Of a stretch of DNA of 42,889 nucleotides, positions 18,165 through 39,236 are shown in pieces. This DNA is from an uncultured Actinomycetes bacterium (GTDB lineage: Bacteria; Actinomycetota; Thermoleophilia; RBG-16-64-13). The notes below the pieces were generated by a model. The model was not told the DNA's origin, did no database searches, and worked only from the letters and a program-made list of their open reading frames with translations. Numbering within the stretch: position 1 is the stretch's first letter; each line of letters opens with the position of its first letter. Where the stretch lies: the NCBI GenBank assembly GCA_903873715.1, contig CAIQPS010000033.1, forward strand, positions 1 to 42,889, written 5' to 3'. The translations under genes were made by a program, and so were the position numbers.

Positions 18165-18195
18165 GCCGTCGCGTCCCTCGGCTGGTGAGGCTCAG
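18161..18195. terminator. Inverted repeat between convergent kinase and flavoprotein genes
   Basis: CTGAGCC (18161-18167) pairs with GGCTCAG (18189-18195) over a 21-nt loop. The repeat includes the stop region of the kinase gene and the end of the large minus-strand operon. The stem is short and has no U-tract, so this is a weak call. Confidence 0.3.
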
Positions 18196-19871
18196 CCCAC
18201 CCTTCCTCCGAGGTACTCGTCCTCGCCGAGCAGTTCCACCGGGTACTTCTCCCGATAGCCGAGCGCCGGGTCCGGCCGCCACTCGGGCGGCAGCGGCTGC
18301 TTGACCACAGCCATGGCGCCGTCGCGCTCCACCAGCTTGACCCAACACAGCCAGTTCTCGTCGTCCCTGAAGGGGAAGTCCTCGCGGTAGTGGGTGCCGC
18401 GGCTCTCCTCCCGCGCGAGGCCCGCCCGCAGCTTCATCTCGGCGTTCAACAGCATGTTGCGGGTCTCGTGAGCCTCGCGTAGGCCGTGAGGGTCATCGGC
18501 TTTGAGGAGAGGCGCATACTTCTGCTGCAGGTACATGATCTGGCTGAGCGCCGCTTCCAGACGGCTCCTCTCCTTCACGTACATCACGTAGTAGGGGAAC
18601 ATGATGTTCTGCAGGAGCCGGGTGACCCAAGCAGGCGAGAATCCTCGCTGTCTGGACAGGGGTGCGAGCATCTCCTCCCGGAGAGTCTCGAGCACGCCAT
18701 TGCCGGCCACCGGCACCGCCTCGAGCTTGGCATACTCGGCGGCCGCCCTTCCGGCGCGGGCCCCCTGGACGGCCGAACCGGCGCAGGAACAGCCGAACCC
18801 CGCGTATCCGGCCCCGTTCTGCATGGAGCAGAGCGCATCCCCGGCGGCCCAGAGGCCGGGCACGTTCGAGGCCCCGAACAGGTCCTGCGGGAACACGCCT
18901 TCGCCCTTGTGGTTGGACATGCCCGGCGTGGAGAACCCCGGTGACTTCGCGAACGGTCCTCCCAGGTAATCGCCCTTCTCGTCCCTTGCCCCGGGGATGC
19001 CGCCCGGCGGCGCGACGAACCGGGCGTCGATGGGAAGCCCCCCGTCGTGGACCCCATACACGGCCGAGATGCGCAGCCCCAACCGGCGGGCGTCGAGGTG
19101 GTCGGCGGGCTCCGTGGGCCCGGGCGGGCCGCCGCCCAGCTCGGTGGCGGCCTTCATGGGACCGGGGTCGACTTCCACCAGAGGGTTGGCCGGCCTGGCC
19201 GGGTGGGCGTCGTTGAACTCCTTGCCGGATATCTCCGCCCCCACCCGGTACGCCATGGCGTCGCCGTCGGCGGTGGCGGCACTGCAGAAGTAGCCCATTC
19301 CCAGGGGCTTGAAGGACGCCGGGCCCGCCGCCACGACCGTGGCCTTCGCCAGGATGGTGCACGCCTGCCCGCTCTCCATGTGGAACCCCACGGCCCCGAT
19401 GACCTTGTCTTCGGGCTTCACCAGACCGGTGATCATCACCCGCTCGATCACGTCCACGCCGCAGGCGAGTACCTTGCCGCGCATCGCGTCGCCGGCCCCG
19501 ACCACCTCGATGGACCGGGTGACCGTGCCGGGCTGGTAGTAATAGGGTCGGCCCGTCTGGGCGCCCCAGGCGGAGACCTCCTGGTAGCGGTCGTACGACT
19601 CGGCCATCAGGATGTCGACGAAGTCCATGTTGTTGAGGTACTCGCCCGAGAGCTTGAACTGCTCCAGATACTGCTCCCGGGTGATCCCCTTGGTGTCCTT
19701 GAAGACGAACCAGGAGTTGGCCCAGGGCGTCAGCCCCGACCGCCCGGTGCGGCCCTTGACGGCCATGACCACCCTGGCCCCGGCTTCGCGCGCCTTGACG
19801 GCGGCGAAGCACCCCGCGAAGCCCCCTCCGATGACGAGGACGTCGGTCTCGAGTGTCATCAGCTCGCTCAT
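18192..19871 (-). CDS. FAD-dependent flavoprotein D (fumarate reductase/AprA-like)
   Basis: A 559-residue flavoprotein of the fumarate reductase / succinate dehydrogenase / APS reductase alpha superfamily. It begins with the FAD-binding motif DVLVIGGGFAGCFAA and has the second FAD segment VPGLWAAGDALCSMQNGAGYAG. The C-terminal helical domain shows HETRNMLLNAEMKLRAG and the capping motif ESRGTHYREDFPFRDD. The position that holds the FAD-linking His in SdhA/FrdA is replaced (GRSGLTPWAN), so FAD should be non-covalent. It is the last gene of the operon, starting 5 bp after the GltD-like gene. Substrate unknown; close relatives are flavoproteins A and B in the same operon. Confidence 0.85.
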   Translation of the reverse strand: MSELMTLETDVLVIGGGFAGCFAAVKAREAGARVVMAVKGRTGRSGLTPWANSWFVFKDTKGITREQYLEQFKLSGEYLNNMDFVDILMAESYDRYQEVSAWGAQTGRPYYYQPGTVTRSIEVVGAGDAMRGKVLACGVDVIERVMITGLVKPEDKVIGAVGFHMESGQACTILAKATVVAAGPASFKPLGMGYFCSAATADGDAMAYRVGAEISGKEFNDAHPARPANPLVEVDPGPMKAATELGGGPPGPTEPADHLDARRLGLRISAVYGVHDGGLPIDARFVAPPGGIPGARDEKGDYLGGPFAKSPGFSTPGMSNHKGEGVFPQDLFGASNVPGLWAAGDALCSMQNGAGYAGFGCSCAGSAVQGARAGRAAAEYAKLEAVPVAGNGVLETLREEMLAPLSRQRGFSPAWVTRLLQNIMFPYYVMYVKERSRLEAALSQIMYLQQKYAPLLKADDPHGLREAHETRNMLLNAEMKLRAGLAREESRGTHYREDFPFRDDENWLCWVKLVERDGAMAVVKQPLPPEWRPDPALGYREKYPVELLGEDEYLGGRVG

Positions 19872-19875
19872 CCCG

Positions 19876-21546
19876 TCACCGCCCCAACTCGACGACGTTC
19901 CAGCCGTGCAGCGACCCCAGGAGCTGCCCCTCGGTGACCGCTATCGCATCGACCGGGCAGTACTTCTGGCACAGTTTGCACACCTGGCAGCTGTCGACAT
20001 ACGCGATGCGCGAACGGCTGCCGCAGGTGAGACAACGCTCGGCCTCCCGGTGCGCCTGGGCGGCACTCAGGCCGCCTGCCACCTCGGCCAGATCGGCGCG
20101 GCGCTCCGCGGCCGGCCGCACCGGCGCCTCCAACCGGTCCAGCATCTCCACCTTCTCCTTGGGTGGCGGCGCCGCCACCACCGGGGCTTCCTGGGCGTCC
20201 TCGGCGGGCTCGCCGCTCAGAGAACGGGCCACCGCCTCCGCCGCCCGCTTGCCCGCCGCCAGCGCCTCCACCACCGTGGAAGCGCCGGTCACCGCGTCAC
20301 CCGCGGCAAAAAGGTCGGACGCCGCGGTCGACCCGTCCTTCGCCGCCGCGATGCGGCCGCGCGCATCGACCTCGAAGCCCGCCGGCACCACCGCCGCGTC
20401 CGGCGCCTGACCGGTGGCCACCACCACCATGCCTGCGGGGACGGTCTGCGGGAGCACGCACTCGCCGTACACAGGCGCGAACCGGCCGTCGTCGTCTCGG
20501 ACGCTCAGGCATTCCACGCAGCGGATGCCCGCCACGCGGCCGTTCTCCACCACGAAGGAATCCACGCCTCGCGACGGCAGGATCTCGACGCCCTCTTCCT
20601 GAGCCTGGTCGATCTCTTCCGAGAGGGCGAGCATGCTGTCCTTGAGCCCGCGTTCCAACTGTTCGAGGCAGACGACGGTGACCCGCGCGGCTCCCAGGCG
20701 GACAGCCGTCCGAGCCGCATCCAGCGCCACACTCCCACCGCCGACCACGGCCACGACCGCCCCAGCGCACGATGCGGACCCCGCCCGCGCCGCCCCCAGG
20801 AACTCCATGGCGCTGACGATGCCTTCGGCGTCGCCGCCGGGCGCCGCCAGCCCCATGGGCTTCGCCGCGCCGGTGGCCGCGACGACCGCCCGGTACCCTT
20901 GGGCGCGCAGTCCGTCCACTGTGACGTCGACCCCGACGCGGACGCCGGTGCGGAACTCGACGCCCAGCGCGCGGTAGGCGGCGATCTGCGCATCGAGGAC
21001 GTCCTCGGGCAGACGGAAGGCCGGCACCGCCGTGCGCAGCATCCCGCCCAGACTCTCATCCTTCTCGAAGACTGTCACCGCCAGGCCCTGCCGGGCGAGG
21101 AAGTACGCCGCAGAAAGACCCGCCGGGCCCGACCCGATCACGGCCACCCGGCCTTGGGTGGCGGGCGCCGGCGGCGCCGCAGGCGCCCCGGCGGTGTTCC
21201 GCAGCAGATGGTCGCCCAGGTAGCGCTCCAGGGCGTTGATGTTCACCGGAGCGTCGACGGCGTTCCGGCTGCAGTCCGTCTCGCACGGGTGAGGGCACAG
21301 CCGGCCGGTGACCGCCGGCATCGGGTGGCACTCGGCAAGGATGGCGGCGGCCGCGTCGATCATGCCCATCTTGAGCAGGTCGTGATACTCGCGCTGCCGC
21401 AGACCCAGTGGGCAGGCGGCGCTGCAGGGCGACACCTCCACCGGGCACTCAGGTGCGGTGTCCAGGCGGAAGACATCCATCGGGCAGGACTCGACGCAGG
21501 TGCCGCACCCGACACATTTATCGAGATCGATGTTCGATACGGGCAT
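19876..21546 (-). CDS. GltD-like NAD(P)H oxidoreductase with extra ferredoxin domains
   Basis: A 556-residue multidomain electron-transfer protein. It has an N-terminal ferredoxin motif (CVGCGTCVESCP), then a GltD-type cysteine segment (CSAACPLG, CHPMPAVTGRLCPHPCETDC). The FAD Rossmann motif is VIGSGPAGLSAAYFLARQG and the NAD(P) Rossmann motif is VVAVVGGGSVALDAARTAVRLGA. A second FAD motif (DLFAAGDAVTGASTVVEALAAGKRAA) precedes a C-terminal Cys-rich region (CLTCGSR, CQVCKLCQKYCPVDAI). In the glutamate synthase family this module moves electrons between NAD(P)H and iron-sulfur clusters. Sandwiched between ferredoxin 3 and flavoprotein D, it is the likely link between the pathway flavoproteins and the NAD(P)H pool. 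No glutamate synthase large subunit is nearby. Confidence 0.87.
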   Translation of the reverse strand: MPVSNIDLDKCVGCGTCVESCPMDVFRLDTAPECPVEVSPCSAACPLGLRQREYHDLLKMGMIDAAAAILAECHPMPAVTGRLCPHPCETDCSRNAVDAPVNINALERYLGDHLLRNTAGAPAAPPAPATQGRVAVIGSGPAGLSAAYFLARQGLAVTVFEKDESLGGMLRTAVPAFRLPEDVLDAQIAAYRALGVEFRTGVRVGVDVTVDGLRAQGYRAVVAATGAAKPMGLAAPGGDAEGIVSAMEFLGAARAGSASCAGAVVAVVGGGSVALDAARTAVRLGAARVTVVCLEQLERGLKDSMLALSEEIDQAQEEGVEILPSRGVDSFVVENGRVAGIRCVECLSVRDDDGRFAPVYGECVLPQTVPAGMVVVATGQAPDAAVVPAGFEVDARGRIAAAKDGSTAASDLFAAGDAVTGASTVVEALAAGKRAAEAVARSLSGEPAEDAQEAPVVAAPPPKEKVEMLDRLEAPVRPAAERRADLAEVAGGLSAAQAHREAERCLTCGSRSRIAYVDSCQVCKLCQKYCPVDAIAVTEGQLLGSLHGWNVVELGR

Positions 21547-21549
21547 CCT

Positions 21550-21912
21550 TCATCGTCCTTTGCTCGGGGGCCCCCAGCCGCCCACCGGCGGCCGCACATA
21601 TGCGGGAGGCGGGTCCGCCATCCCCAGACGGAACTGCTCGCCCGTCTCCTTGCGCTTCCACCCGACCTGCTGGCAAAGCGGGTGTTCCATCCGGATGGCA
21701 CCGGGCGACGGGCAGTGCGCCACACAGCAGCCGCAGAACCAGCACTCGTCGGGATACACGAGCACCGGGGGCTCGCCCGGTCCGGGACTCGGCGCCAGCA
21801 CGTCGCAGCGGCACACCTCGACGCAGGCGTTGCACTGCGTGCACAGGTCCGCGTCGAACTGGATGGCCCGGTTGGGCGTCAGGGGGTTGTTGACGAGGTG
21901 GGCGTCGGCCAT
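21550..21912 (-). CDS. Ferredoxin 3, 2x[4Fe-4S] (AprB-like)
   Basis: A 120-residue soluble iron-sulfur protein with two cluster motifs, CTQCNACVEVC and CWFCGCCVAHCPSPGAI. The tail of about 45 residues (GWKRKETGEQFRLGMADPP) recalls the AprB extension that wraps around AprA. It starts 4 bp after flavoprotein C and ends 4 bp before the GltD-like gene, so it probably transfers electrons between those two. The first motif has Arg rather than Pro after its last Cys, which may tune the potential. Confidence 0.87.
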   Translation of the reverse strand: MADAHLVNNPLTPNRAIQFDADLCTQCNACVEVCRCDVLAPSPGPGEPPVLVYPDECWFCGCCVAHCPSPGAIRMEHPLCQQVGWKRKETGEQFRLGMADPPPAYVRPPVGGWGPPSKGR

Positions 21913-21915
21913 GGG

Positions 21916-23961
21916 TCAGCCCTCCGCCCCGGTGCGCGCCGCACTGCCGGCCACCCGCCCGGCGCCGTCGCCCCGGCCGCTGTGAGCCGCATAGTTCTCG
22001 GCCGACGATCCCGCGTACGGCGCCTGCCGCCAATAGTCCCAGGGCAGGTCCCGGGTGCGGACGGCCGGGCCGTCGCGCCGCACCGTCAGCAGCTTGTCCC
22101 ATTCGGGCGGGTCCATCTCCGGATAGTCGATGCGCTTGAAGCCCAGGGCCTCGCTGCTGGCTCTGCGTGCGAGCGAGGCATGCATCATCGTCTCGCCGAC
22201 GGTCAGCCGGACGCCGCACTCCAGGGTGCGCATGAGCTCGTGCGGGTTGCGGGCACATGCGCCGGCCAGTTCGCCCCGGCGGATCCCATCCAGCCATTCC
22301 AGCCCCAACCGCAGGGTGTTCTCGCTGCGGTACTCGCCGCAGTAGTCCTGCATGACCCGGCAGAGGCCGGCCTGCAGTTCCTTCCAGCCCATGCCTTCGC
22401 TGCGGTTCACCGGGGCGTAGACCCGGGTCTTCTCCTTGTCGATCTGGGCGCGGGCCACCGAAGGCGCCCGCGCGGTGCGGGCATACTCCGCGGCCTTGCG
22501 TCCGGCATAGCGCCCCGTGCAGGCCGAAGCCGAATGGTCCGCCCCGCCGGCCAGTTGCACGCCGGCCGCGTAAAGGCCTTCCAGAGAGGTGCGCAAATCC
22601 CAGTCGAAGTGGACACCTCCCCCATCCACCAGGAAGGCCGATTCTCGCCACTGCCGCGCCGACTGGCCGGCCCACCAAGGCCTTGGTCCGTAGGCGTCGG
22701 GAGCCATCACCGGGGCCTGCAGCAGGTCCTTGTCGGGGTCGAACCCGGCCTGGGAGTACACGTCGTAGACGGGGATGCGGCACTTGCCTTCCTGCGCCAG
22801 CATGAGTCCGAAGATGGCCCGGCGCTCGTCCTCGGCCATGCCCGGGAGGTCGGCGTAGAGGGGTAGGGTGAATTCGCCCCGCGCGATCCGCTCGGGCAGG
22901 TCCGGTGCCAGAGAAGGGCCCCGGAACTCGTAGGCCAGACGCCCGCCGTAGAGGAAGTACTTCTGCCCGGGCGCGGGCCGGTGCCGCTCCGCGTGGCTCG
23001 TCAGAAGCCGCCCGTCGCGGTCCACCCACGGGATCTCCTTGCCGGTCGCGTCCACCACGTTGCAGGCGTACCAGGTGTTGTGGGAGTTGCCGCTGCCGTA
23101 CGCGGTGTAGCGGAAGCCACCCGGGTGGGGCCCGCTCTTCTCCATGAGCGCGAGCTCGCCGCCGGCGTCCCAGGCCATGGCGCAGCCGTCGCCGGCACAG
23201 TTGGGGTCGTCGTGTATGGCGGCGAAACCCTGCAACTCCGTGGAGAACACCCACAGCCGCAGAGGCTGCGCCGTCGCCAGCACGGTGGCCTTCGCCCGGA
23301 ACACGTAGAACTCGCCCGTGCGGACGTTCACCGCCGTCGCCCCCACCACCCGGGCGCCCCGCTCCCCGCCCTCGGAGAGCAGACTGGTGGCCATCACCCG
23401 GTCGAAGATGGTCACGCCGAGCCGCTTCAACTCGCGATGCAGTGCCGGCTTGAACTCCCAGCCGAACACCCGCAGCGTGTGCCGGCCCGTGTAGTCGTAG
23501 GCGAAGAGCAACTTGGTCCCCTCGTCGCGGAACTCGGACCCCGCGAACTCGTCGCCGGTGTCGCGTATCCGCGCCCCCATGCTCTCGAGGTCGAGGAGGG
23601 TCTCGTAACTCTCCCTGGCCATGATGTAACAGGTGATGCCGTTGCCGTACTCGTTGGTGATCCCGTAGGGATAGGTGTCCACCACCCGCGCGAACTCCTC
23701 CGGCGTGATGTCGCAGCAGGGATTGCCCACCGCGCCGTGCCAGTGATCGACGCCCGCTCCACCTGAGCCGCTCCGGATCACCGCTCCCTTGTCGAGCACG
23801 GCCACGCGCGCGCCGTCCCGGGCCGCGTTGATGGCCGCGTGGCAACCGGCGACTCCGCCGCCCACCACGAGGACGTCGAACTCGGCCTCGGTCTCCCGGT
23901 CGTAGCGGACCGGGTAGGGCCAGGCGCTCCCAGTGCTACTCGTCGTCGACACCGGTGGCAT
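21916..23961 (-). CDS. FAD-dependent flavoprotein C (larger, AprA-like C-terminus)
   Basis: A 681-residue flavoprotein, about 120 residues longer than flavoproteins A, B and D. FAD motifs are DVLVVGGGVAGCHAAINAARDGARV and SLEGLYAAGVQLAGGADHSASACTGRYAG. The FAD-His position is occupied by IRSGSGGAG, so covalent flavin is not expected. The C-terminus lacks the ESRGTHYREDFP motif of its paralogues and instead has SSEALGFKRIDYPEMDPPEW, closer to APS reductase alpha-type proteins. ATG 23961 overlaps the end of the amidohydrolase gene by 26 bp and has no clear ribosome binding site, suggesting translational coupling. It is paired with ferredoxin 3 just downstream. Confidence 0.85.
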   Translation of the reverse strand: MPPVSTTSSTGSAWPYPVRYDRETEAEFDVLVVGGGVAGCHAAINAARDGARVAVLDKGAVIRSGSGGAGVDHWHGAVGNPCCDITPEEFARVVDTYPYGITNEYGNGITCYIMARESYETLLDLESMGARIRDTGDEFAGSEFRDEGTKLLFAYDYTGRHTLRVFGWEFKPALHRELKRLGVTIFDRVMATSLLSEGGERGARVVGATAVNVRTGEFYVFRAKATVLATAQPLRLWVFSTELQGFAAIHDDPNCAGDGCAMAWDAGGELALMEKSGPHPGGFRYTAYGSGNSHNTWYACNVVDATGKEIPWVDRDGRLLTSHAERHRPAPGQKYFLYGGRLAYEFRGPSLAPDLPERIARGEFTLPLYADLPGMAEDERRAIFGLMLAQEGKCRIPVYDVYSQAGFDPDKDLLQAPVMAPDAYGPRPWWAGQSARQWRESAFLVDGGGVHFDWDLRTSLEGLYAAGVQLAGGADHSASACTGRYAGRKAAEYARTARAPSVARAQIDKEKTRVYAPVNRSEGMGWKELQAGLCRVMQDYCGEYRSENTLRLGLEWLDGIRRGELAGACARNPHELMRTLECGVRLTVGETMMHASLARRASSEALGFKRIDYPEMDPPEWDKLLTVRRDGPAVRTRDLPWDYWRQAPYAGSSAENYAAHSGRGDGAGRVAGSAARTGAEG

Positions 23962-25165
23962 GCATGATGTTCTTGTTGGGCTTGCCGGTCATGCGCAGGC
24001 CTTCCGGGTCCGGGTACTTGATCTGCTCCCGCGGGATGAAGGGCACGCTGGCGGCCGCGTCAGCGCCGAAGATGTCCGGGCGGCCTTCGGGGAACATCCG
24101 CGGATAGGGCACCGGCAGCTTGTACAGCTTGGCCGCCGTGCCGCCCATGATGAGGTTGATCTCGTCTTGGGTGAGCCAGTCGCCCACCCGGTCGATGGTC
24201 CGCAGGCCCCAGCCGTAGAAGTCGGGCTGATAGGTGGGCACCGCCGGCCAGTCTTTGTAGCCGAACATCATCAGAGACATGGTCTCGCGGTACTCGAGTG
24301 CCTTCACCTTCGGGCCCCACTTCTCGACCCCCCGCCGCACTATGTGCTGAGGGACGTTCCCGTAGTCGTGGCCCCAGGTGAGCCGCGCGGCGCTCACGCC
24401 GGCGTCGAAGGCCACCTCGAACTGCTTCTCGCACCAGCCCCCGGTCTCCATCCAGACGTTGGGAAGCCCGGCGACGACCGTGTACATCTCCCGGATGCCG
24501 TCCAGGCCGCGGGTCCACTCGTCCTCCACGCAACCGTGGGTCTGCATGATCTTGGCGTTCGGGTTCTCCATGGAGATGCGGGCGAGCAACTCGGTGAGGG
24601 TCCATTCCCCTTTGCGCAGGAAGACGAACTGGTCGTGGCAGAGCACCGGCACGTCGTACTTGGTGGCCAGTTCGCAGAGTGCGGCCCACTCCTCGACCCG
24701 CTCCTCGAAGTCGCACGGCCCTTCGGCCCCGGGCACCTGGAGACTGCGCGCGGCCGATCCCGGCGCGAACTCGCCTATGCCCACGAACCAGCCGGTCGCG
24801 AGCGCCTCGTCCACCTCGGCCAGGGCGGCCTTGAAGGTCCAGGGCTTCTCGCCCCGCATGGCGGCGAGGACGGTCTTCTGGTCGCTGCAGCAGGCGCGGA
24901 ACCGGTCGGGGAAGCGCTTGACCAGCTTGGCCTGGCTCTCGTTGGTCGTCCCGGGGATGCTCGGCAGCAAAACCGCCATGTCGACGCCGTAGCGATCCAT
25001 GTCGTACAGCGTCAGGAAGCAGTTGTCGAACGGCTGGACCTCCGCGTGCAGCCCGGTCCATTCCTCGTTCTCCACCATCTCCCACCCCGCGTCCGTGGCC
25101 GGCTGGTAGAGCGTGGTGATGTGACAGTGCGTATCCACGACGTAGCGGGCGATGGAGCGGTTCAT
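23936..25165 (-). CDS. Metal-dependent amidohydrolase (amidohydrolase 2 family)
   Basis: A 409-residue TIM-barrel hydrolase/decarboxylase of the family that includes ACMSD and gamma-resorcylate decarboxylase. Expected metal ligands are visible: His13 and His15 in DTHCHI, His177 in CHDQF and Asp267 in WGHDYG, with His210 (QTHGC) as a further active-site candidate. ATG 25165 has GGAGG 6 bp upstream; about 36 upstream codons in frame were excluded for lack of similarity and because they overlap the MBL 2 end. Its position between the MBL hydrolases and flavoprotein C suggests that it acts on a ring-opened or carboxylated intermediate. Hydrolysis and decarboxylation are both possible. Confidence 0.84.
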   Translation of the reverse strand: MNRSIARYVVDTHCHITTLYQPATDAGWEMVENEEWTGLHAEVQPFDNCFLTLYDMDRYGVDMAVLLPSIPGTTNESQAKLVKRFPDRFRACCSDQKTVLAAMRGEKPWTFKAALAEVDEALATGWFVGIGEFAPGSAARSLQVPGAEGPCDFEERVEEWAALCELATKYDVPVLCHDQFVFLRKGEWTLTELLARISMENPNAKIMQTHGCVEDEWTRGLDGIREMYTVVAGLPNVWMETGGWCEKQFEVAFDAGVSAARLTWGHDYGNVPQHIVRRGVEKWGPKVKALEYRETMSLMMFGYKDWPAVPTYQPDFYGWGLRTIDRVGDWLTQDEINLIMGGTAAKLYKLPVPYPRMFPEGRPDIFGADAAASVPFIPREQIKYPDPEGLRMTGKPNKNIMHATGVDDE

Positions 25166-25217
25166 TGACGACCTCCGTTTGTCGAGGGAACAAGTGACGT
25201 TGAACGACCAGCCGGCA

Positions 25218-27520: not shown

Positions 27521-28476
27521 ACCGCCACCTCCAAGCCGTCCCGGGCGACCGTCACCCGGCCGTCGAAGCCCGCCGCCTTGACGGCCGCCTGTAGCGCCGC
27601 CTCGTCCACCGCGCCGCCGCGAAGGTGAGTGAGCACCACATGCTTCACACCGGCGGCGGCCGCCATCGCGGCCACCTCTTCCAGGGTCGCGTGGGGCTTC
27701 ACCGTGAAATCCCCGCCGTAGGGGCCCTGCGGCCGGTAGCGCGGAGCCAGATCCTCGATGTCGGGCATCACGAACTGGGACGCTCCGCCCCACCGCTCGT
27801 CGCAGTCGGCCACCAGCAGGTCGGCCCCCCTGGACAGCTCGATCAGCCGTTCGTCGAACGCCGTATCCCCCGAGACCACCACGGCCTTGCCGTCCACCTC
27901 GAACCGGTAGCCGACGTCGTACATCGTGTGGGTGAGCTTGGCGGTGCTGACCTGGAGGTCGTCCAGGGCGAAGCTCTCGCCCCCCTTGATCTCCCGTATG
28001 GCGACTCCCTCGAACACTCCGGTGCCGTCCTTGCCGAAGCGGATCTCGCGTAGCATCCGGTAGCACAGGTCGTCATGGAAGAACGTGGTGAAGAACTCGT
28101 GCAAGGCGGCCACACCGGGCGGCCCGACGACGGTCACTTCCTTGCCCCCGGTCAACCACCGGTTGGTCATGATGTCGAAGTAGTCGTTGGTGTGGTCCTG
28201 GTGGAAATGGGTGAAACACACCGCGGCTATGTCCTTGAAGGGGAAGACGCCCCTCTCGCCCTTGAGCATGCTGTTCTGGGCCCCGTTACCCATATCCACC
28301 ACGTAGTACCTGCCCCGGTACTGCAGCATGGTGCAGGCGCTCGCCCGCTCCAGGTTGGGCTGTGGATTGCCGGTGCCCACCGTGATGACGCTGAACGCCG
28401 TGTCGTGGGGGTAGGGCGGCATGACCGGGGGCGGACCTCCTCCGGGCTGCCAGATGCTGTCCAGTGACTGCGCCAT
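27517..28476 (-). CDS. MBL-fold metal-dependent hydrolase 1
   Basis: A 319-residue paralogue of MBL 2. The zinc motif THFHQDH places ligands at His90, His92, Asp94 and His95, with SGDTAFDERL and a late THLRGG His. It contains an extra segment after VADCDERWGG (about residues 230-265) not seen in MBL 2, so substrate pockets may differ. ATG 28476 is 9 bp downstream of the stop of the cytosolic DUF1566 gene, and its stop overlaps the DUF1566 lipoprotein start. The N-terminal 25 residues are Pro/Gly-rich but lack a signal peptide. Confidence 0.86.
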   Translation of the reverse strand: MAQSLDSIWQPGGGPPPVMPPYPHDTAFSVITVGTGNPQPNLERASACTMLQYRGRYYVVDMGNGAQNSMLKGERGVFPFKDIAAVCFTHFHQDHTNDYFDIMTNRWLTGGKEVTVVGPPGVAALHEFFTTFFHDDLCYRMLREIRFGKDGTGVFEGVAIREIKGGESFALDDLQVSTAKLTHTMYDVGYRFEVDGKAVVVSGDTAFDERLIELSRGADLLVADCDERWGGASQFVMPDIEDLAPRYRPQGPYGGDFTVKPHATLEEVAAMAAAAGVKHVVLTHLRGGAVDEAALQAAVKAAGFDGRVTVARDGLEVAV

Positions 28477-28485
28477 CGCGATGCC

Positions 28486-29667
28486 TCAGATGTGGTGCCG
28501 CGGCGGCCGGGGCGCGTCGAGGTTGCGCACGGCCCGGACGTAGTTGTAGATGCGGATGGTGTCCTTCTGTGGGCCGGCGCCTTCCGGGAAGCAGGCCGGA
28601 TCGCCCACCATGGGGTCGGAGCGCATGGCGCCGGCTCCGTGGACGTCGTATTCGTCCTGAGGAAGCGGAGAGGTCTTGCCGGTGGCCTTGCCGAAGGCCA
28701 CGTACACGGCCTGCCCCAGCATGTCGATGAACGGCGTGCTGCTCCAGAACCAGCCCTTCGGGTCCCTGATCTGGAAGATGGGGTTGATGGCCGGGATGAA
28801 GTCGTAGTCGGTGATGCTGTGCAGTTCTTTCTGGTCGGGCAGCCGCCAGTCGTCGTAGCCGGCCAATTCCAGGTGCTCGCAGTAGTCGAGGGCTTCCTGC
28901 CAGTTCCGACCCTTGCCGTCGTCGCACTTCTGCCACATCAGCCCCGTCGCCAGATCGCTGATGGTGCCGTCGTGGTTGTCGACGAACTCGTTGATGCCGT
29001 AGACCGGCCCGCGCACGCAGCGGATGCACCAGGTCTGGAGCCCGTTATAAGGATGGTTGTCCTTGGGATAGCTCTTGATGCGGCCGTCGGTGAAGTTGTA
29101 GCCGAAGAACGTCGGGGCGATGTGCATGACGCCCGGCTCGATCTTCTTCTCGCCGAAGTCCTGCCACCAATCGGAGAACAGCACCGACTTGGAGATGTAC
29201 GACGTGGTGGTCACCAACTGGGAGTCGATGAACCGGTAGCCGTCGATGTTCGCCGGCCCGTAGGTGAGGTCGAAGTAGCGGTCGTCGAAGTAGGCGCGGC
29301 GGGGGCGCATGGTGCCGTTGGCATCCACCAGGGAGATGAGCTCCTTGATGCTCGGCACCCGCCAGTCGGAGTGGCCGCCGAGGCGCAGCCTCGCGGCGTA
29401 GTCCTCGGCCTCGTACCAGGTGACCCGCCCTTCCAGCGAGTCCTCCCGGGCATCCGTCGTCTTCTGCCACATGAGACCGGTGTTGAGGTCGGAGACGGTT
29501 CCGTCGCCGTTGTCCCGATATGCGGGCTCCAGCTTGGGATAGTGCGCGTCCTGCCCGTAGAACGGCTCGCCCGGCTCCGGGCGGGGGATCTCACCGCGAG
29601 GCCCGAAGTACCGCTTCATGTTCGTCCCCACGATGGGGTAGGCCCGCTTCTTCTTCACGTCGTCCAT
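28486..29667 (-). CDS. DUF1566-domain protein, no signal peptide
   Basis: A 393-residue protein with the same two DUF1566 units as the lipoprotein downstream (NTGLMWQKT...DWRVPSIKELISL and ATGLMWQKC...DDWRLPDQKELHSI) and the same ending (DVHGAGAMRSDPMVGDP...IRIYNYVRAVR). It starts MDDVKKKRAYPIVG from ATG 29667, with GGAG close upstream, and has no hydrophobic leader, so it should stay in the cytoplasm. An in-frame extension upstream overlaps ferredoxin 2 and was rejected. It is paired with MBL 1. Whether it binds the pathway substrate or acts as a partner of the hydrolase is not known. Confidence 0.8.
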   Translation of the reverse strand: MDDVKKKRAYPIVGTNMKRYFGPRGEIPRPEPGEPFYGQDAHYPKLEPAYRDNGDGTVSDLNTGLMWQKTTDAREDSLEGRVTWYEAEDYAARLRLGGHSDWRVPSIKELISLVDANGTMRPRRAYFDDRYFDLTYGPANIDGYRFIDSQLVTTTSYISKSVLFSDWWQDFGEKKIEPGVMHIAPTFFGYNFTDGRIKSYPKDNHPYNGLQTWCIRCVRGPVYGINEFVDNHDGTISDLATGLMWQKCDDGKGRNWQEALDYCEHLELAGYDDWRLPDQKELHSITDYDFIPAINPIFQIRDPKGWFWSSTPFIDMLGQAVYVAFGKATGKTSPLPQDEYDVHGAGAMRSDPMVGDPACFPEGAGPQKDTIRIYNYVRAVRNLDAPRPPRHHI

Positions 29668-29714
29668 GTGACTCCACTCCGTCTCAGTCTTCGCGGCGGC
29701 GCCGCTCGATCGGC

Positions 29715-29933
29715 CTAGCCCCAGCCCAGCAGGTAGGGCTTGGGCCAGCCGGGTTTCAGGTAGATGGCTTTCTCCGGGCACTCCAGACACTGGCCGCAGA
29801 GCATGCAGTCGGCCTGGTAGCGGATCTCGGCCTTGCGGGTCTCCCGGTTCATCCGGATGACGTCCATGGGGCAGTTGCGCACGCAGATGCCGCAGCCGTT
29901 GCAGAGGGCGAAGTCGATGCTCTCGATGGCCAT
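29715..29933 (-). CDS. Ferredoxin 2, 2x[4Fe-4S], atypical second motif
   Basis: A 72-residue ferredoxin. The first cluster motif is standard: Cys11, 14, 17 and 21 in CNGCGICVRNCP. The second reads CMLCGQCLECP, with Cys43, 46, 49 and 52. The last spacing is therefore two residues, not the usual three seen in its paralogue ferredoxin 1 (CMNCEQCALDCP). The gene begins 2 bp after flavoprotein B ends, so it is the probable electron partner of that protein. Confidence 0.88.
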   Translation of the reverse strand: MAIESIDFALCNGCGICVRNCPMDVIRMNRETRKAEIRYQADCMLCGQCLECPEKAIYLKPGWPKPYLLGWG

Positions 29934-29935
29934 GG

Positions 29936-31642
29936 CTACCTCCCCTCTCCTGCGGCGTTCGGCGCGCCGCTTCCCGGCACCTCGTTGGGCAGCCGCATCG
30001 GGTAGCGCTCCTCATAGCTCTTGGCGGCATCCGGGCGCCACTCGGCCGGGATGGGCTGCTTGAAGGTGACCATCCGCCCGTCCTCCTGCTTCAGGCGCAT
30101 CCAGGCGAGCCATTCCTCGTCGTTGCGGCCGGGGAAGTCTTCCCGGTAATGCGTGCCGCGGCTCTCGGTGCGGGCCAGCGAGGAGCGGACCTTCATCTCC
30201 GCGTTGAGGATCATGTTCTTGGTCTCGTGAGCGAGGCGCAGCTCGTGATCGTCGCGGGCATAGAGCTTCGGCGCGATGTGGTCGCGCAGGAACTCGACGG
30301 TGCTCAAGGCCGCCTGCAGCCGGTCGCCGTGCTTGACGTACAGCACGAAGTACGGCGCCAGGGTGTTCTGCAGCACCTGGGTGACCCAGTTGGGCGTGAA
30401 CCCGCCCTTGCGCTCGAGCGGCTCCAGAAGGCGAGCGGTGGCTGCCGCCACGGCCTTCTCGTCGATGCCTCCGTCCGCGCCGAGGCCTTTGGCCTCGGCG
30501 GCAGCGCCCAACCCCGCCCGCGCCCCGGTGGCGGCCGCATGGGCAGTGGCAAAGCCGAACCCCGAATAGTTGGCGCCGATGAAGCACGTGCCGCAGCTGT
30601 CGCCGGCGGCGTACAGCCCCGGGACCTCGGTGGCGCAGTCGTCGTTCACCGGCACGATGCCGCCCGTCGCGTGCCCGAACATGGAGCCGTGGCCTCCCGG
30701 GCCGCTCACGGGCAGTACGCCCCGCTTGCCCAGATCGGCGATGAGCGGCGCCCGGCCCTCGTGGGCCTCGTACTCCGCGTCTATCCAGCCGTGCCAGGCG
30801 ACACCGCGCGCGGCGACCTCATCGCCCTCGGCGTTGAACAGATGCGGGGCGGAATACATCCCGGGCTGGGCCGCCGAGTGACCGGCCGAGAAGAACAGGT
30901 ACATCGGCGGCCAGGCAGGGTCCTTGGGATTGGTGCTGTGCGGCGAGACGAACTCCTTGCTGGTGATGGTCGCCCCGGCGCGGTAGGCCATGGCGTGACC
31001 ATCGGCTGTGAGCTCGTGCGTCGGGTAGCCGACGGGCCTGAACCCGCCGCCGCCCGCACTCATGACCACGGCCTTGGCCTTGATGACCTCCACCCTGTTC
31101 CCCTCGATGGAGAAGCCGATCGCCCCGGCGACCCGGCCGTCCTGCAGGAGGAGCTCGGTCACCATAAACCTATCCTTGAGCTTCACCCCTATCTTGATGA
31201 GGTGTTTGCGCACCTTCTCGGGGAAGCCGGGCAGCCAATGCACCACTTCGCTGACGGTGGGCGGGAACTTGTGGGTGTCGGGCAGCACGATGTTGGCATG
31301 CGGATGCGGCAGCCGCACCACCCGGCCGTCCTTCTCCTCGAACTGCACCCCGTAGGACCTGAGGTCGGCGAGGCGTTCCCGGGAGTCGCGGAACACCAGC
31401 TCGTTCCAGTGCCTGTTGTTCATGTACTCGCCGATGACGTCGACCTGCTCCAGCCAGGCGGCGAGGTCGTTGCCGGCGTCGGGATCGAAGACCGCGGTGT
31501 CGCCGGCGTAGATGGTCTCGCCCGACTTGCTCACGTAGCCCTTGTCGGCGAGCAAGACGTTCAGCCCCTGTTCGCGCGCCTTGATGGCCGCGAACCAGCC
31601 GGCCATACCGCCACCGATGACGAGGACATCACATTCGATCAA
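29936..31642 (-). CDS. FAD-dependent flavoprotein B (fumarate reductase/AprA-like)
   Basis: A 568-residue flavoprotein of the same subfamily as A and D. FAD motifs are DVLVIGGGMAGWFAAIKAREQG and VPGLYAAGDSCGTCFIGANYSGFGFA. The C-terminal part contains HETKNMILNAEMKVRSS and ESRGTHYREDFPGRND. The covalent-FAD His position is replaced (SKSGETIYAGD). It is preceded by ferredoxin 1 (30 bp gap) and followed by ferredoxin 2 (2 bp gap). The protein contains no transmembrane helix or signal peptide, so it should be a soluble cytosolic reductase or dehydrogenase. Its electron acceptor or donor is probably one of the flanking ferredoxins. Confidence 0.87.
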   Translation of the reverse strand: MIECDVLVIGGGMAGWFAAIKAREQGLNVLLADKGYVSKSGETIYAGDTAVFDPDAGNDLAAWLEQVDVIGEYMNNRHWNELVFRDSRERLADLRSYGVQFEEKDGRVVRLPHPHANIVLPDTHKFPPTVSEVVHWLPGFPEKVRKHLIKIGVKLKDRFMVTELLLQDGRVAGAIGFSIEGNRVEVIKAKAVVMSAGGGGFRPVGYPTHELTADGHAMAYRAGATITSKEFVSPHSTNPKDPAWPPMYLFFSAGHSAAQPGMYSAPHLFNAEGDEVAARGVAWHGWIDAEYEAHEGRAPLIADLGKRGVLPVSGPGGHGSMFGHATGGIVPVNDDCATEVPGLYAAGDSCGTCFIGANYSGFGFATAHAAATGARAGLGAAAEAKGLGADGGIDEKAVAAATARLLEPLERKGGFTPNWVTQVLQNTLAPYFVLYVKHGDRLQAALSTVEFLRDHIAPKLYARDDHELRLAHETKNMILNAEMKVRSSLARTESRGTHYREDFPGRNDEEWLAWMRLKQEDGRMVTFKQPIPAEWRPDAAKSYEERYPMRLPNEVPGSGAPNAAGEGR

Positions 31643-31672
31643 GGTCGTACCTCCCCGGCTTCCCGGAACGTC

Positions 31673-31894
31673 TCAGCCCCAACTCGATATGAGCGGGACG
31701 GTCTTGTAGGGGGTCACGGTCACCGCTTCTTCCGGACAATCGAGCGCACACTGCTCGCAGTTCATGCACTCCTGGGGGTAGCGGATCACCGCTTTCTGCC
31801 CCGCTCGGTCCATGCGGATCACATCCATGGGGCAGCTGTCGATGCATATGCCACAGCCGGTGCAGAGGTCGAGGTCTATCTTCTCGATGGTCAT
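31673..31894 (-). CDS. Ferredoxin 1, 2x[4Fe-4S]
   Basis: A 73-residue ferredoxin with two complete motifs, CTGCGICIDSCPMDVI and CMNCEQCALDCPEEAV. It ends in a C-terminal tail (PYKTVPLISSWG) like the one in ferredoxin 2 (PKPYLLGWG). The ATG lies 1 bp after the SDR stop and the gene ends 30 bp before flavoprotein B. The pair resembles a simplified AprAB or flavoprotein/iron-sulfur module. Confidence 0.9.
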   Translation of the reverse strand: MTIEKIDLDLCTGCGICIDSCPMDVIRMDRAGQKAVIRYPQECMNCEQCALDCPEEAVTVTPYKTVPLISSWG

Positions 31895-31895
31895 C

Positions 31896-32657
31896 TCACA
31901 CCACCGCGGTCAGCCCGCCGTCGACGAACAGGATCTGCCCTGTCACGTAGTCCGAGGCAGGCGAGGCGAAGAACAACACGGGCCCGACGAGATCCTCGGG
32001 TTGCGCCCAGCGCCCCATCGGGATGCGCTCTATGAGACTGGCGGCGGCCACCGGATTGCCAAGGATTGAGGTGGTGAACTGCGTCTCCACGACGGTGGGC
32101 GCGATGGCGTTGACATAGATGCGCTGCGGGGCCCACTCCACCGCCAGTTGCCGGGTGAGCGCGTCGACTGCGCCCTTGCTGGCGCCGTAGTCGGCCATAC
32201 CTCCACGGGTGCCGTAGCTTGCCCTCACCGAGGAGATGTTCACGATCTTGCCGCCGCCATGCTCCATCATCTCTTTGCCGAACACCCGGCAGCAGATGAA
32301 CGTCCCCATGGTGTTCACCTCGAGGGTCTCCCGGACCTTGTCGAGAGGCACCGAGACCGAGGGCGTGCGGGCGGCCACCCCGGCCGCATTCACCAGGATG
32401 TCGACGCCATCCCAGAAGGTCTTCAGCTCGGAGGCGAGAGCCTCCACGGAAGCCTCGTCGGTGACGTCGACCGCGCGGGCCAGAGTCCGACAGCCGAAGG
32501 CGCGGACTCCGTCGGCCGCCGCTTCGGCCACCGCCAGGTCGCGGTCGGCTACGGCCACGTCCGCCCCATGTTGCGCCAACCCGGCTGCGAGCGCGCTGCC
32601 GATGCCGCCGGCGCCCACCACCAAGGCCTTCTTCCCGGTTATATCAAGAAGGTTCAT
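31896..32657 (-). CDS. Short-chain dehydrogenase/reductase (SDR)
   Basis: A 253-residue classical SDR, an NAD(P)-dependent oxidoreductase acting on alcohol/ketone groups. It has the nucleotide-binding loop VVGAGGIGSALA (an Ala-Gly variant of TGxxxGxG), NAAG at the expected place, the catalytic Ser in ISSVRAS and the YGASK Tyr/Lys pair. The C-terminus FFASPASDYVTGQILFVDGG is typical. ATG 32657 shares one base with the stop of flavoprotein A. In the operon it probably interconverts a hydroxyl and a keto group on the substrate. Confidence 0.92.
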   Translation of the reverse strand: MNLLDITGKKALVVGAGGIGSALAAGLAQHGADVAVADRDLAVAEAAADGVRAFGCRTLARAVDVTDEASVEALASELKTFWDGVDILVNAAGVAARTPSVSVPLDKVRETLEVNTMGTFICCRVFGKEMMEHGGGKIVNISSVRASYGTRGGMADYGASKGAVDALTRQLAVEWAPQRIYVNAIAPTVVETQFTTSILGNPVAAASLIERIPMGRWAQPEDLVGPVLFFASPASDYVTGQILFVDGGLTAVV

Positions 32658-34279
32658 CACTGCACCCCGCCTGCCGTGAGTGGCCTGTGCTCCGCCGACA
32701 CCGGACGCTTGAAGAGCTCCATGCCATCCCCGGCCCTCCTGAGGATCACCCATGCCAGCCACTGGCCGTCGTCGCGCACCGGGAAGTCCTCCCGGTAGTG
32801 GCAGCCGCGAGTCTCGGTCCTGAAAAGGGAGGCGCGCAGGCGCATCTCGGCGTTCAAGACCATGTTGCGGGTCTCGTGGACCAGCCGGAGCTCGTGCTGG
32901 TCGGTGGCGTAGAGCTTGGGCACCAGGTGGTCGCGGAAGAACTCCACGTTGGCCAGAGCCGCACGCAACCGGTCGCCGTGCTTGATATGCAGCACGTAGT
33001 ACGGGAGCACGGTGTTCTGCAGCATCTGGGTGACCCAGCGCGGCCCGAATCCGCCGGAGCGTCTCAGGGGCGCTGTGATGGCTTCAGCCGCACGCTCGAC
33101 ATCCGCCCCCGCCGGGTGGGCCGGGCCGCCGGCCCGCGCCGCATACGCGGCCGCCCCAGCCCCGGCATGGGCCCCGGTGACGGAACACCCGAGCACGGAC
33201 TGGCCTATCGCGGCGTAGGTCGCGCCCGACTGCATCGTCCCCAGGCTGTCCCCGGCCGCATACAATCCCGCGACATTGCAGGAACAATCGGTCCCGGCCG
33301 GCCGGATACCCTCGGCCTTGTGCACCGACATCCCGCCGGCCGCTCCACCCACCATGGGCCACCTGACACCGTCGGGCATCTCAATGAAGAGAGGTCCGTG
33401 CCCGGCATGGACCGCACGATCGAGGTCCAGATCGAGTACGCCCATGGGCGGCAGCGGATGGCCGTCCGAATCGAGGAACCGGCCCCGGGGCGGCCCGCCC
33501 CCTTCGGGATCGCGGCCGTATCTCCCGAACATGACCGAAGCGGCCTGGTCGAGTCTCGCGTGATGCGGGTCGGCGAACTCTTTGCCGGTGATCTCCGCGC
33601 CCACCCGGTAAGCCATGCAGTCGGCATCCGACGTGAGGTTGTCGATGGGCCACCTGCCCGGCCGGAACCCGCCGGCCCCAGCCGCCAGGACCACCGCCTT
33701 GGCGGTGAAGATGTCGACCGCGTCTTCGGCGTCGGCAGGTATCCCGGCCGCGCCCACGACCTGCCCCCCGGAGGTGAGCAACTCCACGATCATAGTGCGG
33801 TCAACGATCGTCGCCCCGTGCTTGAGCACCTGCCTCCGCAGGGTCATCGATGGTGCGCGGGTCTCCATCATGGCCGCCTTGCACGGCCCCACCGGCGGGC
33901 CGTCCCGCTGTGGCTCGACGCCGGCCCTGGCATCGCCGTCCGCCCCGAACCTCACGCCCCACGACAGGAGCTCCAGATAGCGTTCGTAGGATTCACGGAA
34001 ACAGAGTTCCGTCCACACGCGATCGTTGACGCTCTCGCCGATGGAGCTCACCTGCTCCATCCAGGCGTCCAGGTCATCCCCCCACTCGGGGTTGAAGACA
34101 CAGTAGCTGCCGGCGAACGGGGTCTGCCCCGACTTGCCTGCGAAGCCCTTGTCCACGAGGATGACCGAGGCGCCGGTCTGGCGGGCCTTGATGGCCGCCG
34201 TACACCCAGCGAGACCGCCACCGACCACAAGAACGTCGGCCTCGAAAGACCTTCGGACCTGTGACGTTCCCCTGCTCAC
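32657..34279 (-). CDS. FAD-dependent flavoprotein A (fumarate reductase/AprA-like), first gene of operon
   Basis: A 540-residue paralogue of flavoproteins B and D. FAD motifs are DVLVVGGGLAGCTAAIKARQTGA and VAGLYAAGDSLGTMQSGATYAAIGQS. The C-terminal part has HETRNMVLNAEMRLRAS and ETRGCHYREDFPVRDD. The covalent-FAD His is absent (GKSGQTPFAGS). GTG 34279 has GGGAG about 10 bp upstream. It opens the 14-gene operon, and the SDR gene follows with a one-base overlap. It lacks its own adjacent ferredoxin, so it may share ferredoxin 1. Confidence 0.86.
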   Translation of the reverse strand: MSRGTSQVRRSFEADVLVVGGGLAGCTAAIKARQTGASVILVDKGFAGKSGQTPFAGSYCVFNPEWGDDLDAWMEQVSSIGESVNDRVWTELCFRESYERYLELLSWGVRFGADGDARAGVEPQRDGPPVGPCKAAMMETRAPSMTLRRQVLKHGATIVDRTMIVELLTSGGQVVGAAGIPADAEDAVDIFTAKAVVLAAGAGGFRPGRWPIDNLTSDADCMAYRVGAEITGKEFADPHHARLDQAASVMFGRYGRDPEGGGPPRGRFLDSDGHPLPPMGVLDLDLDRAVHAGHGPLFIEMPDGVRWPMVGGAAGGMSVHKAEGIRPAGTDCSCNVAGLYAAGDSLGTMQSGATYAAIGQSVLGCSVTGAHAGAGAAAYAARAGGPAHPAGADVERAAEAITAPLRRSGGFGPRWVTQMLQNTVLPYYVLHIKHGDRLRAALANVEFFRDHLVPKLYATDQHELRLVHETRNMVLNAEMRLRASLFRTETRGCHYREDFPVRDDGQWLAWVILRRAGDGMELFKRPVSAEHRPLTAGGVQ

Positions 34280-38343: not shown

Positions 38344-39236
38344 GACGTCCCCCTGAGCCGCGGGTCGAGCACGTCCCGGAGGCCGTCGCCGACCATGTTG
38401 AAGGCGAACACCACCAGCATCACGGCGACACCGGGGACGATCGACAGCAAGGGGTACTGCACCAGGTATGGGAAGCCCAGGGAGACCATGGCCCCCCAGG
38501 CCGCCGTCGGCGCCTGGATGCCGATGCCCAGGTAGCTCAGGCCCGCTTCGCCGAGGATGGCAGCGCCGATCTGCATGGTGCCGAACACCAGCACGGCCGG
38601 GTAGGCGTTGGGCATGACGGTGCCCACCATGGTGCGCCACTTGGGCGCTCCCATGCTGCGCTGCGCGGAGACGAAGTCCCTCTCCTTGATGGTGATGGTC
38701 TGCGCCGCCATGAGGCGGGCGAACGGCGGGATCATGCTCACCGAGATGGCGATCACCACGTTCTTGAGGCCGCCGCCCAGGACGGCGGCGAGGGTCAGCG
38801 CGAGGAGCAGCATGGGTATCGACATGAGCATGTCGACTATCCGCATGATCACCGCCTGGACGATGCCGCCCAGGAAGCCGGCCACGGTCCCCAGGATGCC
38901 CCCGAGGATGACGGCGGCGGCCACTGCGGCCAGACCTACGATGAGCGAGGTGCGGGCCCCGTAGATGAGCCGGCTGAGCGTGTCGCGCCCCAGGTTGTCC
39001 GTACCGAGCAGATGCTGCGCCGATGGCTTGGCCAGCGAGTTCTGCATGTCCACCGCGTTCGGGTCGTAGGGGGCGAGCAACGGGGCGAAGATGGCCATGA
39101 GGATCATCAGCGTGATGACCACCGCACCGAACATGAACAGGCCTTTGCGCAGCAGCAGATGGACTGCCACCTGGCGGGTGCTCATGTGCTGGGGTGCGGC
39201 CACCACCAGCGGGTCTCTCTGCGCGGCGAACCTCAT
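38340..39236 (-). CDS. ABC importer permease, OppC/DppC type
   Basis: A 298-residue inner-membrane permease with about six helices and an N-terminal OppC segment ending in [23 protein letters not shown]. The coupling loop that contacts the ATPases is [21 protein letters not shown]. Its start overlaps the stop of the OppB-type gene by four bases (ATGA). It forms the translocation channel with the OppB-type subunit. Confidence 0.93.

Follow-up and report, generated by a model that had tools for sequence, protein, structure and literature searches.

Closest described systems

The described systems closest to the locus reported here are flavoprotein reductases of sulfur and dicarboxylate metabolism, oxygen-independent routes for the breakdown of phenolic compounds, and a collagen-like protein of Legionella. 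The locus lies on a stretch of 42,889 nucleotides (the window), which is the entire contig C33 (CAIQPS010000033.1) of the draft genome (assembly GCA_903873715.1; 3.33 Mb, 96.88% complete) of an uncultured bacterium, hereafter the host, from Thermoleophilia, a class within Actinomycetota. It consists of 14 genes for flavoproteins, ferredoxins, hydrolases and lectin-like proteins, with a five-gene Opp-type importer upstream. The 14-gene run plus importer is real, conserved in part in other genomes, and not found described as a set in the literature searches made, and it looks like an undescribed pathway of import and breakdown. We tentatively favor, at somewhat under an even chance, a role in taking up a phenolic, perhaps of plant type, or an alicyclic ring derived from one, and in breaking it down anaerobically through ferredoxin-linked ene-reductase or dehydrogenase steps.

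The phloroglucinol pathway of C. scatologenes uses a short-chain dehydrogenase/reductase (SDR), PGR; a cyclase-family cyclohydrolase, DPGC; a hydroxyacyl-dehydrogenase-like enzyme, TfD; and a BKACE lyase, TAL (PMC10470551). Anaerobic flavonoid degradation involves CHI, FCR, and phloretin hydrolase (PMC8084988, PMC12203004). In catechin-fed peat, undescribed Actinobacterial genera reportedly expressed flavonoid-degradation genes, and the first catechin step, from catechin to taxifolin, is said to be carried out by unknown enzymes (PMC12203004). Catechol dehydroxylases are closest to acetylene hydratase and stand apart from pyrogallol hydroxytransferase (PMC7028382), and the Legionella collagen-like protein Lcl is reported to recognize sulphated glycosaminoglycans (PMC11162425). 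As far as titles and the starts of abstracts reveal, searches of an open-licence paper library gave no description of the present gene set or of DUF1566 proteins with a flavoprotein and ferredoxin, and none of the papers listed for AprA-like proteins describes such flavoprotein-ferredoxin pairs; the earlier note on this DNA, made from the sequence alone, had likewise not recognized the set as a described pathway.

Gene content and extent of the operon

All 14 genes of the run (18192-34279) lie on the minus strand, and gene calls and Pfam matches confirmed the families assigned to them in the earlier note: four FAD_binding_2/Succ_DH_flav_C flavoproteins, three two-cluster ferredoxins, a GltD-like protein (Fer4_20, Pyr_redox_2), an SDR, an Amidohydro_2 protein, two Lactamase_B_2 proteins of the metallo-beta-lactamase (MBL) fold, and two Lcl_C (DUF1566) proteins with two domain copies each. 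The gene order is fpA, sdr, fd1, fpB, fd2, lclA, mblA, lclB, mblB, amh, fpC, fd3, gltD, fpD. With the starts chosen here, overlaps are at most 26 bp and gaps at most 52 bp. The unit is larger than was proposed. The importer (34468-40189) lies on the same strand directly upstream of fpA, with 188 bp between, and has the composition of an Opp-type ABC importer, with an SBP_bac_5 protein, two permeases, and two ATPases in one run. We treat the unit as 19 genes, listed below; the closest locus found elsewhere (L029, the same locus as L138) belongs to the metagenome-assembled genome (MAG) Thermoleophilia bacterium Loclat_bin-16816 (G034, the same genome as G507, since the C74 match agrees in coordinates and score between the two), of the same class as the host.

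39233..40189, minus strand: oppB-like permease, first gene of the run; BPD_transp_1 (2.6e-45), 65% identical to the gene beside amh in G034
38340..39236, minus strand: oppC-like permease; BPD_transp_1, OppC_N
37288..38247, minus strand: oppD-like ATPase; ABC_tran, oligo_HPY; start from the composition-based caller
36296..37291, minus strand: oppF-like ATPase; ABC_tran, oligo_HPY; 76% identical to G034
34468..36237, minus strand: extracellular solute-binding lipoprotein (signal and lipobox by eye); SBP_bac_5 (1.4e-76), NCBIfam NikA/GsiB-like below cut-offs
32657..34279, minus strand: fpA, AprA/FrdA-like flavoprotein; FAD_binding_2, Succ_DH_flav_C; own lineage in both trees
31896..32657, minus strand: SDR; adh_short_C2 (3e-61)
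31673..31894, minus strand: fd1, two-cluster ferredoxin with a WG end; Fer4 domains
29936..31642, minus strand: fpB, flavoprotein followed by fd2; Pfam, 68% identical to its L029 relative
29715..29933, minus strand: fd2, two-cluster ferredoxin; Fer4_7
28486..29667, minus strand: lclA, two Lcl_C (C-type-lectin-like) domains; Pfam (5e-44), no signal peptide by eye
27517..28476, minus strand: mblA, MBL-fold hydrolase, AtsA/RNase Z-like; Lactamase_B_2
26132..27520, minus strand: lclB, lipoprotein (by eye) with two Lcl_C domains; Pfam, 39% identical to lclA
25218..26135, minus strand: mblB, MBL-fold hydrolase; Pfam, 51% identical to mblA
23936..25165, minus strand: amh, divergent Amidohydro_2 subfamily; Amidohydro_2 (3.2e-11)
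21916..23961, minus strand: fpC, AprA-like flavoprotein of a separate clade; Pfam, trees
21550..21912, minus strand: fd3, ferredoxin with a long C-terminal tail, adjoining fpC; Pfam
19876..21546, minus strand: gltD-like, 4Fe-4S motifs at the N- and C-terminus; Fer4_20, Pyr_redox_2, PRK12771-type below cut-off
18192..19871, minus strand: fpD, flavoprotein; 71% identical to L029, 67% to a Pontiellaceae protein

A filter on third-codon-position GC content (GC3) passed 12 of the 14 genes, with lclB and mblB failing (present only as over-long open reading frames [ORFs]); an antisense ORF at 19612-22866 also passed. Of the 14, the composition-based gene caller recovered all but fd3. A search of 21000-40600 gave no sigma-70-like promoter where shuffled sequence would be expected to give 1.8, a result of little weight in a genome of 68% GC.

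Flavoproteins and ferredoxins compared with known reductases

The four window flavoproteins took four separate placements in both a quick tree and a careful, midpoint-rooted tree of 26 chosen rows. In these, fpD grouped with L029 and a Pontiellaceae protein (support 100/100), fpB with L029 (100/100), and fpC with L046, L072, L135, and L195 (100/100), while fpA stood apart, its sister left undecided by the careful tree. A kinship of fpA with Chloroflexi and Acidimicrobiales proteins in the quick tree (SH-aLRT 94) was not upheld in the careful one and was dropped. The description of these proteins as fumarate reductase/AprA-like holds for their family. They are four separate lineages and not copies of one; since four separate placements are needed, their sequences indicate paralogs brought together rather than recent duplication.

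The structure model of fpB (predicted local distance difference test [pLDDT] 87.9) matched the alpha subunit of a methanogen phosphoadenosine phosphosulfate (PAPS) reductase (8a8o; Z 39.3, root-mean-square deviation 2.7, 488 aligned) and FrdA (Z 39.1), which amounts to a tie. The window shares this fold and an adjacent two-cluster ferredoxin gene with PAPS reductase and with adenosine phosphosulfate (APS) reductase AprAB, but all four window flavoproteins score only 45-95 bits on the aprA model TIGR02061, against a cut-off of 641.75, and here the neighbors are importer and catabolic genes and several separate flavoprotein lineages occur in one operon. The fold, FAD domain, and C-terminal domain are shared with fumarate reductase/succinate dehydrogenase, but curated models of these enzymes were below cut-off for all four flavoproteins (best 25 families each), and no membrane-anchor gene was recognized in the window run. 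The Arg of the SdhA HGANR motif binds dicarboxylates. It aligns with Tyr359 of fpB, and Tyr occupies this position in 40 of 46 aligned flavoproteins; given the role of that Arg, its replacement makes a dicarboxylate such as fumarate or succinate an unlikely substrate for fpB-type flavoproteins. R491, R495, H498, R500, and D502 were kept in all 46. This alignment (A3, 46 rows) came from the 50 best flavoproteins of the loci described below plus the window's three; alignment A2 had 17 rows, with the partial L108 copy left out.

To compare gene neighborhoods, named genomes were scanned with an alignment of fpB, fpA, and fpD, which gave 204 relatives, of which the best 80 loci were kept. Genes in these loci were called with our own composition script, which missed some short ferredoxins. 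A ferredoxin-like match was present in 79 of the 80 flavoprotein loci (the exception being L031), and 48 such matches, the window included, lay within 150 bp of a flavoprotein match, the one in L046 being the N-terminus of GltD. The adjacency of fpC and fd3 was seen again in L046, L137, and L195. Many neighboring ferredoxins end in Trp-Gly or a similar aromatic tail; among the 56 ferredoxin matches no more than 400 bp away from a flavoprotein, 31 have a Trp-Gly C-terminus, and it is possible that this end is a docking tail. GltD itself carries a ferredoxin-type Cys motif at the N-terminus (Pfam) and another at the C-terminus (by eye).

Hydrolases, lectin-like proteins, and dehydrogenase

The best solved relative of mblA is the arylsulfatase 8gyg (E 1.9e-18), ahead of RNase Z; ribonuclease Z models also match the MBL proteins, below cut-off. 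The HxHxDH motif reads THFHQDH in mblA and THLHQDH in mblB. In its MBL fold, this motif, and an AtsA-type enzyme as nearest solved relative, mblA resembles AtsA-like type III (MBL) arylsulfatases. Of the ring or ester hydrolysis proposed earlier for the MBL proteins and the amidohydrolase, a ring-hydrolase role is not supported for mblA, whose nearest relatives are AtsA-type arylsulfatase and RNase Z and not a known ring hydrolase.

The family assignment of the two DUF1566 proteins was correct but incomplete, as they consist of tandem C-type-lectin-like domains. PF07603 matched above cut-off, and the lclA model (pLDDT 83) contains two domains of this fold. Its best VIA-align match is the C-terminal domain of Legionella Lcl (8q4e; Z 9.9 over 120 residues), while a Foldseek search with the model gave no matches at 0.001. 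The window proteins thus share the Pfam Lcl_C domain and fold with Legionella Lcl, but differ in having tandem domains within a catabolic-looking operon, and lclA, without a signal peptide, appears cytosolic by eye.

No relatives of amh were found among solved structures by phmmer, and in a profile search of these structures the single amidohydrolase hit was weak (E 0.07) and ranked below short matches to SDRs. The amh alignment (A4) had 14 rows, with the cut copies L130, L131, L137, and L140 and unread places left out. The nearest solved structures to the SDR are gluconate 5-dehydrogenase-like, which is not diagnostic.

Recurrence in other genomes

The gene-neighborhood comparison that the earlier note had called for showed conserved co-occurrence. 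In L138, eight contiguous homologs with 58-83% identity follow the order fpB (cut by the contig end)-fd-fpB-fd-mblA-lclA-gltD-fpD; conservation is highest for lclA, with 83% to L029. On another contig of the same genome, amh directly precedes oppBCDF-sbp. Smaller sets recur in other phyla and taxa: sbp-oppBCDF-fpB-gltD-fpC-fd3 in L046 (an Actinomycetes MAG, genome G520), amh-amh-fpD-fd-fpC in L054 (Deltaproteobacteria), fd-fpD-lclB-lclA in L065 (Pontiellaceae; fpD 67%), opp genes-lclA-fpA-fd in L044 (Chloroflexi), amh-fpD-fd-fpC in L135 (a Desulfatiglandales MAG), and amh together with fpC and fd3 in L137. Because eight homologs are contiguous in L138 and smaller sets recur in other phyla, we regard the genes as a co-inherited unit, and because much of the set recurs, their proximity in the window is more than chance adjacency.

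By raw count, at least two Opp-type genes lay near a flavoprotein in 9 of the 80 loci (L037, L038, L040, L043, L044, L046, L048, L053, L056), and an Lcl protein occurred in 14 of the 80, across several phyla. Homologs of amh were found at 1e-15 in 8 of 36 searched genome handles, one genome being counted twice, and at 1e-20 in 1 of 148 other genomes in the relatives search (G034). At 1e-50, fpB was found in 0 of 395 other sampled genomes, among the best three candidates per genome; because G034 holds fpB relatives yet cannot have been drawn, this result describes the sample and is not an absence. Five of the 395 other sampled genomes contained lclA, with no flavoprotein matches at 1e-5 in the 6 to 40 kb around these five homologs, so a lone Lcl protein is not diagnostic.

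Two observations touch the relatives. In L070, L094, L105, and similar marine loci, a ferredoxin, a ferric-reductase-like membrane protein (by eye), and a flavoprotein form a trio, accompanied in some of these loci by Lcl lipoproteins or by genes resembling CotH, VTC, or DUF4956 (by eye). Beside similar clusters in two phyla lie large beta-helix proteins (L138:9472-11928 and L135:5625-8153) that share about 36% identity. The identities of TAXI/TRAP, LIV, CotH, VTC, DUF4956, ferric-reductase-like, and cupin proteins throughout were assigned by eye, without a family search.

Phenolic gene complement of the host

The distinctive feature of the host genome is its complement of phenolic enzymes, a gene set that is well supported. 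A search with BthS, which matches the small subunit of pyrogallol hydroxytransferase, gave 16 matches in the host at 1e-15, of which 13 reach 1e-40 or better; the remaining three may be other four-cluster ferredoxin subunits. There were 17 matches in G520 and 4 in G507. At 1e-40, BthS was found in 0 of 245 other genomes sampled from Actinomycetota; the 10 host candidates scored there all passed. G507 would pass this test and was evidently outside the sample. In the expanded host set, large-subunit-like genes adjoin the small subunits in the loci read.

One host locus, L182 (G000:C69:1-6315), has the order BthL (partial, by similarity)-BthS-Cyclase-3HCDH-SDR-cupin-like-BKACE, and so contains all four enzyme families of the phloroglucinol pathway together with transhydroxylase-type subunits. 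The set is also present in G507 (L183) and G520 (L184) at 70-87% identity, with the BKACE of L183 at 36%. The window SDR is 42% identical to that of L182, but the operon has the SDR without cyclase, 3HCDH, or BKACE.

Flavonoid-type genes occur beside flavoprotein-ferredoxin pairs. In the host, L193 has the order fd-fp-Chalcone_N-3HCDH-SDR at 8756-13422, the Chalcone_N gene being chalcone-isomerase-like, with an acetylene-hydratase-like molybdenum (Mo) enzyme beyond it on the other strand; this segment is a candidate flavonoid-degradation cluster. In G520, L194 has fd-fp-DAPG_hydrolase, and the phloroglucinol-type set of L184 is followed by BthS-fd-fp. The flavoproteins of these three pairs form another clade (three rows, 100/100), which joins the clade of fpA, fpB, and fpD with support of 94/94 in the midpoint-rooted tree. 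In L171, also in the host, a DAPG_hydrolase (phloretin-hydrolase-like) gene has BthLS and a FAD_binding_2 flavoprotein of another kind as neighbors. The L138 contig has a BthLS pair at its end. Acetylene-hydratase-type Mo enzymes, assigned from a solved structure in L072 and from similarity in L054 and L131, are found at most about 9 kb away from amh or fpC in these three loci.

Taken with these genes, the host is very probably a polyphenol degrader using oxygen-independent enzymes, and it is probably anaerobic. This genome context agrees with the earlier suggestion that a cyclic or unsaturated compound is broken down by anaerobic redox chemistry. The window itself was rejected as part of the phloroglucinol or the flavonoid pathway, as their marker genes are absent from it: Pfam scans and tblastn turned up no cyclase, BKACE, chalcone-isomerase, DAPG-hydrolase, or Mo-enzyme gene in the window, with zero tblastn matches there for the L193 or the L194/L171 proteins. 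The operon, without the markers of these two known routes, is therefore a different set in the same organism.

Proposed role and competing explanations

The substrate and the order of reactions are what we infer for the operon. The Opp-type importer would take up a phenolic compound or phenolic conjugate, from which the MBL hydrolases could cleave off a group, possibly sulfate, given the similarity of mblA to AtsA. Paired with fd1/fd2-type ferredoxins in the case of fpA, fpB, and fpD and with fd3 in the case of fpC, the flavoproteins may then work on the C=C/C-C bonds of a ring or enone as ferredoxin-linked ene-reductases or dehydrogenases; the fold of fpB is modeled, and the partners are assigned from adjacency. 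From its domains, GltD would pass electrons between NAD(P)H and the ferredoxins. The SDR would interconvert ketone and alcohol, the amidohydrolase-type enzyme might hydrolyze or decarboxylate an intermediate, and the Lcl proteins might serve in ligand binding or enzyme assembly. With these changes, the interpretation in the earlier note is partly supported.

We hold this reading tentatively because its link to phenolics at the level of the operon is indirect, and several findings weigh against it. Since marker genes were not found in the window, the link runs through the genome and the sister clades only, and the flavoproteins of the L193, L194, and L184 pairs are just 27-29% identical to fpB. 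In L138, the BthLS pair lies on the opposite strand, separated from the run by an MFS-like and a beta-helix gene, and its nearest host relative (L163) sits on a different contig. Of the loci searched, only L138/L029 have mblA again. Relatives of the flavoproteins also lie near TAXI/TRAP, LIV, and sugar-type transporters, CoA transferases, and MmgE/PrpD (by eye); because these settings are many and unrelated, a flavoprotein-ferredoxin pair alone does not signal phenolic metabolism. In G508 (a Bathyarchaeota MAG of about 1.4 Mb, the genome of L030), there were 15 matches to the amh subfamily, and in the 7 of these 15 places read, no flavoprotein homolog was labeled beside amh, which weakens a strict link between amh and the flavoproteins. 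Finally, the Lcl, sulfatase, arylsulfotransferase, and MBL neighbors could equally point to a sulfated carbohydrate.

The main alternative, which we consider rather unlikely, is that the compound taken up and degraded is a sulfated carbohydrate or another sulfo-conjugate, with Lcl proteins binding a sulfated glycan, the MBL proteins acting as sulfatases, the SDR as a sugar-acid dehydrogenase, and the flavoproteins oxidizing sugar-derived rings. The glycosaminoglycan binding of Legionella Lcl, whose domain is the best fold match of lclA, the arylsulfatase nearest to mblA, and the gluconate 5-dehydrogenases nearest to the SDR are consistent with this. Type I sulfatase-like genes are present in L037, L042, L044, and L053 and, more weakly, in L067, L071, L099, and L106, and arylsulfotransferase-like genes in L036, L037, L082, and L086 (domains checked for L044 and L086 only). 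Several Lcl-carrying flavoprotein loci come from marine genera, which have a glycan-degrading habit. However, no glycoside hydrolase or lyase Pfam match was found among the window genes scanned, except a phosphorylase at 6624-9260, lclA looks cytosolic, and what distinguishes the host genome is its phenolic enzymes. A sulfo-conjugated phenolic would satisfy the phenolic and the sulfate readings alike.

It is also unlikely, in our judgment, that the run is a composite, in which a catabolic set (importer, amh, fpC-fd3, gltD, fpA/B) adjoins a separate flavoprotein-ferredoxin-Lcl module whose redox role is perhaps envelope-linked. In its favor, fpD groups with the L065 flavoprotein from Pontiellaceae (100/100) and, less strongly, with the L192 flavoprotein of G507 (86/78), both of which adjoin Lcl genes and have no catabolic genes in the part of the locus read. 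L192 pairs an lclB-like Lcl protein (53%) with an fpD-like flavoprotein (59%). The spread of Lcl across phyla in the flavoprotein loci agrees with such a module. The gaps of at most 52 bp, with overlaps, all along the run argue for one unit instead, and L138 interleaves lclA and fpD with fpB, mblA, and gltD.

We think it improbable that the flavoproteins act on a non-aromatic alicyclic compound, such as a steroid or terpenoid, as ring dehydrogenases or ene-reductases. Their fold and conserved Tyr/His residues suit enone and ring chemistry in general, and an Opp importer and an SDR are compatible with many substrates, but no steroid- or terpenoid-type marker was recognized among the window genes scanned, and the genome context is phenolic. 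Sulfur metabolism of the AprAB/PAPS-reductase kind, suggested by the closest folds and by the flavoprotein and two-cluster ferredoxin architecture, is very improbable given the aprA scores, the Opp-type importer, and zero sulfate adenylyltransferase or sulfite reductase matches among the window genes scanned.

Returning to the phenolic reading, a broader and rather unlikely extension is that such flavoprotein-ferredoxin pairs are a widespread class of two-subunit, ferredoxin-driven ene-reductases and dehydrogenases for phenolic rings and enones. If so, the class would be an anaerobic counterpart of old yellow enzyme (OYE)-type reductases, and could include the first enzyme of catechin breakdown or the resorcinol reductase of PMC10470551, which depends on ferredoxin. 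If the favored reading holds, the pairs would share with that reductase the reduction of phenolic rings by way of ferredoxin, although such a functional likeness is a guess. On this view, the window would join an importer to a phenolic pathway in which several such enzymes act in series, organized by cytosolic lectin-fold proteins. Many genes now named only fumarate reductase-like would gain a testable role if the pairs are ferredoxin-linked ring or enone reductases, and because importer, hydrolases, and redox enzymes sit together, the operon is a compact test case. Anaerobic polyphenol breakdown is relevant to wetland carbon storage and to gut polyphenol metabolism.

Other genes in the window

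Between the importer and the que genes at the contig end lies a small membrane-protein-like gene (40380-40931) with zero Pfam matches. The que region, upstream of the importer at 41026-42833, contains genes for QueC and a QueD-like PTPS, along with a weak match to radical-SAM proteins that looks QueE-like by eye. Near the opposite contig end, a RACo-type corrinoid activator (AcsV model below cut-off) adjoins a LarA-like protein (84-1907 and 2203-3474).

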